Below, one piece after another: positions 4,482 through 39,986 of a stretch of DNA of 43,386 nucleotides; the first letter of the stretch is position 1; each line of letters opens with the position of its first letter. This stretch comes from Solirubrobacterales bacterium (GTDB lineage: Bacteria > Actinomycetota > Thermoleophilia > Solirubrobacterales > 70-9), in contig JAICSS010000022.1 of the NCBI GenBank assembly GCA_025936755.1, positions 1 through 43,386 of the forward strand, read 5' to 3'. The notes under the pieces are model-generated. The model saw only the letters and a list, made by a program, of their open reading frames with translations, was not told where the DNA came from and ran no database searches. A program made the translations under genes and the position numbers.

Positions 4482-4991
4482 TCAGTGTAGAGAGATGGCC
4501 CAGGCGGTCAAAGCGTCGACGTGCCCCTCCTCGAGCCCCAGATCCGGCTCGGTCGGGACCAGCAGCGTCGGCGCCCCGCGGCGCTCCGCCCACTCGTAGC
4601 AGCTGGCATCGAAGTTGTCGTCGATCCAGGCGATCGCCCGCTCACCCGCGTAGGCCTCCAGCGCCGCCAGCTTCCAGTGCGCGCCGCCGCTGCCGGCGGC
4701 GACGTCGAAAGAGACGTGCGGCAGCTCCGGCAACCCCAGCAGCTGCGGCAGGTAGAAGTTCGCTTTGTCCTCCCACCCGCTCGCCCAGACCAGCTCAAAC
4801 CTCTCCGAGAGCCGCAGCAACCGATCCCCACAAACAAGTGAGATGCAATGAGGGACTCCATCAACCAGCTGTATCTGTGAATGCGCTGGCCTCTCCTCGA
4901 ACCCAAACAGCGAAATGACCCCATCAATATCGACTGCCAGCAGCGGCTTGTCCAGGGGCGGGGGATGGCCCTCGGGCTGGCGGATACTCAA
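4482..4991 (-). CDS. HAD-like domain protein
   Basis: The product is about 169 residues. LLAVDIDGVISLF near the N-terminus matches HAD motif I (DxD), and AWIDDNFD near residue 140 matches the acidic motif IV. The overall pattern resembles the stand-alone HAD domain also found in the so-called Swiss Army Knife RNA repair proteins; phosphatase or phosphotransferase activity is an inference. The only in-frame start of a normal type is a TTG at 4991-4989. That TTG sits in the T-run of the rpsG terminator hairpin, and the first codons form one arm of a larger inverted repeat. The true start is therefore uncertain; a CTG at about codon 13 is possible. Confidence 0.7.
   Translation of the reverse strand: MSIRQPEGHPPPLDKPLLAVDIDGVISLFGFEERPAHSQIQLVDGVPHCISLVCGDRLLRLSERFELVWASGWEDKANFYLPQLLGLPELPHVSFDVAAGSGGAHWKLAALEAYAGERAIAWIDDNFDASCYEWAERRGAPTLLVPTEPDLGLEEGHVDALTAWAISLH
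4484..4489 (-). promoter_or_regulatory. -10 box TACACT for the small membrane protein gene
   Basis: TACACT on the minus strand ends 7 nt before the GTG at 4476, the same spacing as at several other genes in the window. It lies just inside the 3' end of the upstream HAD-like gene. Confidence 0.4.
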
Positions 4992-5045
4992 AATGCCGGC
5001 CTAATTAGGCCGGCATTTGTCAGAACGAGGGCCATCCCCCGCCCC
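4955..5045. repeat. Nested inverted repeat between rpsG and the HAD gene
   Basis: Outer arms of 20 nt (4955-4974 and 5026-5045, GGGGCGGGGGATGGCCCTCG and its exact complement) enclose a 28-nt perfect palindrome at 4991-5018. The two stems are separated by 16 nt on one side and 7 nt on the other, so the full structure could form about 34 base pairs. The left outer arm is coding sequence of the HAD gene; the right arm lies between that gene and the rpsG stop. Confidence 0.85.
4991..5018. terminator. Palindromic terminator downstream of rpsG
   Basis: AAATGCCGGCC-TAATTA-GGCCGGCATTT is fully self-complementary. Read on the minus strand, rpsG is followed 33 nt later by this stem and then by TTTTG, the layout of an intrinsic terminator. 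The symmetry means it could also stop transcripts coming from the other side. Confidence 0.8.
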
Positions 5046-39209: not shown

Positions 39210-39938
39210 GTGTCCTCCGAAGTCGCCGTAAAGCCGCTGCCCCGGCGGGGCAGGCTCTGGGTCATCGCCCTGCTTGCCCTGGGCCTGTTCGCGCTCGGCT
39301 ACACGATCGTCCAGATGGCGACGCGGAAGCCGGGAGACCCCGTCGTCCACCTCGCCGGCATCTCCGATGCCCAGGGCCTCTTCGGCGGCATCCCGCAGGA
39401 AGGCGACCGGCTCGGCTCCGACGACGCCCCGGTGACGATCCAGGTCTTCAACGACATCCAATGCGACGACTGCCGCGAAGACTTCCTCTCGACGATCCCG
39501 GCGCTGACCGAAAAATACGCCCGGCCCGGCGACGTGAAGTTGCTCTGGCGCCACTACTCCAACAGCGTCCAGCCCGAGCAGCTCGGCTTCTACGGCGCCG
39601 AGGCGGCGGCCGACCAGGGCTATGGCTGGCAGTACATCTACCTCTTCTTCCGCAATCAGAAGGAAGCCGAACGGTTCGGCATCAACCAGGATTTCATGGC
39701 CTCTGTCGCCGCCGGGGTCGGGGAACTCGAAATCGAAGAATGGGAAAAGGACCTCGAAGACAACGGCCAGAAAGGCGGCCCGATCGAGCAGCGCCTCGAA
39801 AGCTACGAGGAAATCGGCCGCAACCTCGAAATCCGCACCGGCCAGGGGATGGTCATCAGCGGGCCGAGCGGGACCGTGACGCTGCAGGAAGGCCCGTCGC
39901 TGGCCGAAGTCGAAGCGGCGATCGCCGAAGTCGAATAA
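39210..39938 (+). CDS. Membrane-anchored DsbA/thioredoxin-fold protein
   Basis: The 242-residue product has one N-terminal membrane helix (about residues 15-36, RLWVIALLALGLFALGYTIV). An extracytoplasmic thioredoxin fold follows, with the redox motif Cys85-Asp-Asp-Cys88 in FNDIQCDDCREDF. It resembles DsbA/DSBA-like disulfide oxidoreductases common in actinobacteria, acting on exported proteins. The middle region (YYIYLFFRNQKEAERFG-like) fits the helical insertion. The GTG start follows a purine-rich site. A perfect palindrome starts one base after the stop. Confidence 0.85.
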   Translation: MSSEVAVKPLPRRGRLWVIALLALGLFALGYTIVQMATRKPGDPVVHLAGISDAQGLFGGIPQEGDRLGSDDAPVTIQVFNDIQCDDCREDFLSTIPALTEKYARPGDVKLLWRHYSNSVQPEQLGFYGAEAAADQGYGWQYIYLFFRNQKEAERFGINQDFMASVAAGVGELEIEEWEKDLEDNGQKGGPIEQRLESYEEIGRNLEIRTGQGMVISGPSGTVTLQEGPSLAEVEAAIAEVE

Positions 39939-39986
39939 GCGTAACCGGCTTTTGCCACAGCCGGCTGTGGCAAAAGCCGGTTACGC
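39939..39986. terminator. 48-bp perfect palindrome, bidirectional terminator
   Basis: GCGTAACCGGCTTTTGCCAC at 39939-39958 begins a 24-nt arm (39939-39962) that is followed without a spacer by its exact reverse complement (39963-39986). It lies between two convergent genes: it starts right after the stop of the thioredoxin-fold gene and includes the stop codon of the hydrolase gene. Termination in both directions is the likely role; the lack of any loop or mismatch is unusual. Confidence 0.85.

Follow-up and report, generated by a model that had tools for sequence, protein, structure and literature searches.

We found that two convergent genes in the window (the whole stretch of 43,386 nucleotides analyzed here, from a soil actinobacterium) share a 48-bp perfect palindrome at their 3' ends. 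Our data suggest, with slightly less than an even chance, that the palindrome is a recently acquired gene-end hairpin resembling repetitive extragenic palindromes (REP elements), which would give both transcripts a common 3'-end structure that is I-shaped-terminator-like or RNA-protecting. Furthermore, the source genome and that of its sister species are full of long near-perfect hairpins belonging to several families. Dozens of gene-end hairpins are present, so that the palindrome, taken alone, is less exceptional than it first appeared; the group of elements that it resembles is poorly described.

Sequence and position of the palindrome

The palindrome occupies positions 39939-39986 and consists of two exact 24-nt arms with zero spacer (GCGTAACCGGCTTTTGCCACAGCC|GGCTGTGGCAAAAGCCGGTTACGC; Table 1). 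The preliminary description had reported a 48-bp perfect palindrome of this form, and we found its coordinates to be exact and all 24 pairs to be perfect. It had also placed the palindrome between convergent genes and with one stop codon inside, which agrees with our gene models: the hydrolase stop (TAA, read on the minus strand, 39981-39983) lies within the right arm along with the last Ala codon, while the dsbA-like stop (TAA, 39936-39938) lies just outside and the palindrome begins at the following base. The further statement that there is no loop holds for the DNA and not for the RNA, since fold prediction for the 88-nt region gave a 22-bp stem that ends in a CCGG tetraloop (-50.4 kcal/mol, z -5.7). 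Zero-spacer palindromes this long are expected by chance ~6e-9 times in the window and 3e-7 times in 2.4 Mb (70% GC), and the expectation for the window rules out a chance origin.

Table 1. Features at the convergent gene junction, in window coordinates
Feature	Position	Strand	Remarks
DsbA/thioredoxin-like protein gene (Pfam Thioredoxin_4), 242 aa	39210..39938	+	3' end adjoins the palindrome
Hydrolase-transcript tail beyond the hairpin, UUAUUCGACUUCGG	39925..39938	-	Weakly U-rich; the dsbA-side tail GACGCGCC is without a U-tract
Left arm, GCGTAACCGGCTTTTGCCACAGCC	39939..39962	+	Starts right after the dsbA-like stop codon; contains a second in-frame TAA
CTTT-[20 nt]-AAAG core	39949..39976	.	TTTT 39950-39953, AAAA 39972-39975, 18 nt between; class II inverted-repeat geometry
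Right arm	39963..39986	+	Exact reverse complement of the left arm; spans the hydrolase last codon and stop
Alpha/beta-hydrolase gene (Pfam Abhydrolase_1), 312 aa	39981..40919	-	Convergent; stop within the palindrome

The same junction in related genomes

The convergent dsbA-like/hydrolase pair is present in the source genome (G000), in its closest relative (G002, a metagenome-derived actinobacterium, record VAYN01000023.1) and in G004, as well as in G001 and G010, where the hydrolase gene is broken off by the contig end. We found no palindrome at this junction in G004, G002, G001 or G010. The two stops almost touch in G004 (TAG C TCA), G001 and G010 have short ordinary spacers only, and G002 carries a ~1-kb insert between the genes instead of the palindrome. 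Since relatives with the same gene pair lack it, these alignments indicate that the palindrome is most simply a derived feature of the source genome, loss in all the others being a less simple alternative; on this point the preliminary description gains support. The insert in G002 (L003:2221-3240; G002:C21 16068-17091) contains an apparent cytidine-deaminase-like reading frame, as judged by eye, and G003 has a hairpin with 17-bp arms directly 3' of its dsbA orthologue.

The hydrolase C-terminus is identical in G002 (..RLRRVA-stop). Its V-A-stop end is encoded by GCC TGA in G002 and G004 and by GCG TAA, within the palindrome, in the source genome. Given the same C-terminus in G002, the palindrome swapped GCC TGA for GCG TAA and left the protein unchanged. 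Both flanks of the palindrome align to G002, with 86% and 91% identity. The window belongs to a draft genome of 45 contigs, which could raise the suspicion of an assembly artefact, but this is very improbable because both flanks are orthologous to G002 and colinear with it, both proteins end where their orthologues end, and 48 bp is shorter than an ordinary read.

We next asked whether the palindrome occurs elsewhere. With as many as 3 mismatches tolerated across the 38-nt core, the source genome yielded no second copy, and 49 further family genomes yielded no near copy. The core had no exact match in a species-level genome collection, from which the source genome and its near neighbours may have been left out. 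A comparison with Rfam 15 returned nothing above the gathering score, only sub-threshold hairpin look-alikes.

Long hairpins at gene ends

We surveyed 2.27 Mb (~63% of the source genome and ~29% of G002) for hairpins with near-perfect arms, loops of up to 14 nt and a score of at least 13. The survey returned 96 hairpins, 67 in 1.52 Mb of the source genome and 29 in 0.75 Mb of G002. A count restricted to perfect arms of at least 12 pairs with loops of up to 12 nt, made on the 1.12 Mb that formed the earlier part of the source-genome sample, gave 38 hairpins vs 4 in a first-order Markov control. Most hairpins outside genes have a stop codon and not a start codon as the closest gene boundary (27 of 38 in the source genome, 14 of 17 in G002). 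The preliminary description had looked to enrichment of similar hairpins at convergent gene ends as a check, and such enrichment was indeed seen: 12 hairpins lie between convergent genes in the source genome vs 5.2 expected by intergenic length (binomial p 0.004) and 5 vs 2.6 in G002 (p 0.11), p-values that count family members as independent and that depend on a crude, home-made gene caller seeded with the genes of the window.

Many of the surveyed hairpins have 14-26 perfect pairs, and two convergent genes of G002 flank a zero-loop palindrome of 38 bp (L126:9240-9277), so that perfection of this degree is not the exception it had been taken for. The instability of palindromes in replication carries little weight at 48 bp. 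Several of the surveyed hairpins fall into repeat families. At two orthologous places the two species have different hairpins (L152 vs L129 and L170 vs L075), a pattern consistent with a requirement for hairpin structure and not for a particular sequence. At another (L087 vs L133) both species retain the hairpin, with each of its arms changed.

We considered whether the palindrome might have formed neutrally, through a replication template switch at its centre, the 8-bp self-complementary AGCCGGCT, that copied one flank inverted and left a functionless structure, perfect because it is young. The presence of this 8-bp palindrome at the centre is consistent with such an event, as are the uniqueness of the sequence and its absence from all relatives examined, and perfection fits youth. 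We nevertheless regard neutral formation as unlikely, since a large number of other long hairpins show the same perfection, and some of those retained in both species have changed on both arms (L087 vs L133; family D, below), suggesting upkeep. Furthermore, a simple switch explains neither the class II geometry described below nor the coincidence with both gene ends.

Inverted repeats of fixed geometry

We defined class II inverted repeats, in the source genome and G002, by the arrangement outer arm-TTT-17/18 nt-AAA-outer arm. A scan for TTT in the left arm and AAA in the right arm, with at least 7 further outward pairs and spacers of 0-60 nt allowed, found 27 inverted repeats, of which 25 have a spacer of 13-20 nt (17-18 nt in 18 of the 27) and one more has a spacer of 3. 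Inverted repeats of the opposite, canonical-terminator polarity numbered 4. The TTT-AAA spacer of the palindrome is 18, as in class II and as in 0.5% of shuffled-arm palindromes, a correspondence to be read with the fact that class II was noticed only after the polarity of the palindrome had been seen. Its arm has no special likeness to class II arms, as 31% of genomic 9-mers before TTT score equally well. This rules out class II membership by arm sequence; the arm is no closer than random, and membership would be by geometry, which was recognized post hoc. Of 30 class II elements, 2 lie at convergent ends, 7 separate divergent gene pairs and 8 are located inside predicted genes. Since they are not concentrated at convergent ends, termination cannot be the general role of class II.

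Within class II, subfamily C has the form GTTCGTCCTTT-N17/18-AAAGGACGAAC (GGCGTTCGTCCTTT-N17/18-AAAGGACGAACGCC). The source genome has 9 copies and G002 has 8, but the other 48 genomes of the family contain none. Its arms are exactly kept while the centre is hypervariable, and the spacer is 17-18 nt in 17 of 17 copies though 10-20 nt was allowed. At one orthologous site (L039:2426-2471 / L144:17859-17905) the two species have identical arms around unrelated centres, in spite of 91-93% identity in the flanks. Because the G002 centre at L144:17859 resembles the centre of another G002 copy, the comparison suggests that the centre may have been replaced by ectopic conversion.

Exact arms around a centre of variable sequence and constant length would suit a candidate site bound by a dimeric protein, either a DNA-binding protein or a recombinase, with class II representing inverted sites separated by a fixed centre of 17-18 bp; the orthologous site with identical arms and an unrelated centre points the same way. 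For the palindrome this seems quite improbable, as a single protein could hardly recognize arms that vary from subfamily to subfamily, and the arms of the palindrome are found nowhere else. We also considered that the palindrome might be a single-copy member of an undescribed actinobacterial set of inverted repeats, characterized by fixed TTT-17/18-AAA geometry, exact arms, a fast-replaced centre, a non-RAYT mode of spread or renewal and use as shared convergent 3' ends, and we hold this to be unlikely, though by no means negligible. RAYT/Y1 transposase (PF01797) was detected in 0 of 12 genus genomes and in 5 of 14 controls, which rules it out as the mobiliser.

Comparison with known terminators and repeats

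Intrinsic terminators are defined by a GC hairpin followed immediately by a U-tract, and the palindrome falls outside this definition. It was not called by a terminator scan; the hydrolase-strand tail UUAUUCGA has 4 U in 8 bases (UUAUU), and the dsbA-strand tail GACGCGCC has no U-tract. The palindrome resembles the canonical bidirectional intrinsic terminator (A-run, GC stem, T-run) in being palindromic and in lying between convergent genes, but its polarity is reversed, with the T-run in the 5' arm and the A-run in the 3' arm, both within the stem. Because the U-tract is missing on the dsbA side and weak on the hydrolase side, and because the in-stem A/T run is of opposite polarity, the bidirectional terminator put forward in the preliminary description finds no support in its canonical form. 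Examples with canonical polarity are present in the source genome (window 4991-5018 and L149:347-374).

An intrinsic terminator serving mainly the hydrolase gene, in which the minus-strand transcript would form the 22-bp hairpin and then UUAUU, might account for a stable hairpin at the stop codon with the tail TTATTCGACTTC immediately after the stem. We consider this improbable: four T in eight bases is under the cut-off of the terminator scan, the stem is longer than usual and the opposite strand is without a U-tract.

I-shaped, U-poor 3'-end hairpins have been described for mycobacteria and Streptomyces (PMC12288462, PMC8269248), including the HS-U-lack transcript ends of Streptomyces clavuligerus (PMC8269248). 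The palindrome agrees with their positional and structural definition, lying 0 bp from the dsbA stop and overlapping the hydrolase stop, with the predicted stability given above. Like I-shaped terminators (PMC12288462, PMC8269248), it is a stable GC-rich hairpin less than 50 bp past a stop, lacks a U-tract on the dsbA side and belongs to a high-GC actinobacterial host. It differs in its perfect 24-bp arms and zero DNA loop, in being common to two convergent genes, in overlapping a stop and in its absence from relatives, and as a terminator it is putative only. By analogy, an I-shaped 3'-end hairpin is the best counterpart, and the palindrome may terminate transcription or may simply mark and protect the 3' ends that Rho and nucleases leave behind.

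We favor, tentatively, a shared 3'-end hairpin that was recently acquired. A 48-bp palindrome with class II geometry would have landed in, or arisen at, a convergent junction where some relatives have the two stops almost side by side, and would have taken over the last codon and stop of one gene, putting equivalents in their place. Upon transcription of either gene, the RNA 3' of the stop would form a hairpin of 22 bp closed by CCGG. This hairpin might act as a U-poor, I-shaped aid to pausing or termination and as a block to 3' exonucleases, and might limit read-through into the opposite gene. Convergent genes would probably gain most, because one hairpin could serve both. Against this explanation, the arm sequence of the palindrome is single-copy and unlike those of class II, the same gene pair manages without a hairpin in G004, G001 and G010, and class II elements occur in every kind of gene context.

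REP elements are repetitive extragenic palindromes tagged with GTAG/CGTC (PMC3733652). The local hairpins resemble them (PMC3733652) in being short palindromes, mostly intergenic or downstream of genes, with several families per genome, restriction to close species, and variable stems and loops. They differ in having ~10-20 copies per subfamily vs more than 100, in their longer perfect stems and in the absence of a RAYT-type Y1 transposase from the 12 genus genomes. The palindrome itself has no GTAG or CGTC tag and is unique; as a single-copy sequence (up to 3 mismatches) in a genus without a RAYT-type transposase, it falls outside the REP definition.

Hairpin families

The hairpins of the two species show two modes of change, with arms kept and centres changing in subfamily C, and loops kept and stems co-varying in family D. 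As a natural collection they lend themselves to two questions: by what means transcript ends arise in high-GC bacteria that lack strong U-tracts, and by what means short palindromes can spread and keep their perfection when no REP transposase is present.

Family D has stems of 20-28 bp and a conserved 13-nt loop, AACAGCGGGGAGG; members include L048:6527-6591, L159:6954-7016, L156:14838-14896, L049:14963-15027 and, in G002, L125:7490-7556. The loop core has 13 exact matches in the source genome and 8 in G002, and ten further genomes of the genus have none. When 10 copies were compared, 9 or more of them were paired at 19 of the 20 stem positions, and two or three different Watson-Crick pair types occurred at 15 of the 20. 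The family is missing at one orthologous site in G002 (L159), and another hairpin stands in its place at a second (L152).

Family B consists of two hairpins (L065:13728-13760 and L044:1230-1262) that have the flanks GTCCTC..TGCGTCCTA in common and stems that differ by paired changes. A further family has loops like TACCTGCTTAGTG and otherwise unrelated stems of 19-22 bp (L056:16802, L053:3211, L042:1464, L042:17150 and L040:1663). Within the window, positions 4955-5045 contain a perfect 28-bp palindrome, AAATGCCGGCCTAATTAGGCCGGCATTT, of canonical bidirectional-terminator polarity, nested in a 25-bp inverted repeat; related elements that share the flank CGGATACTCA but have different stems lie at L063:7873, L058:364 and, reversed, L047:797.
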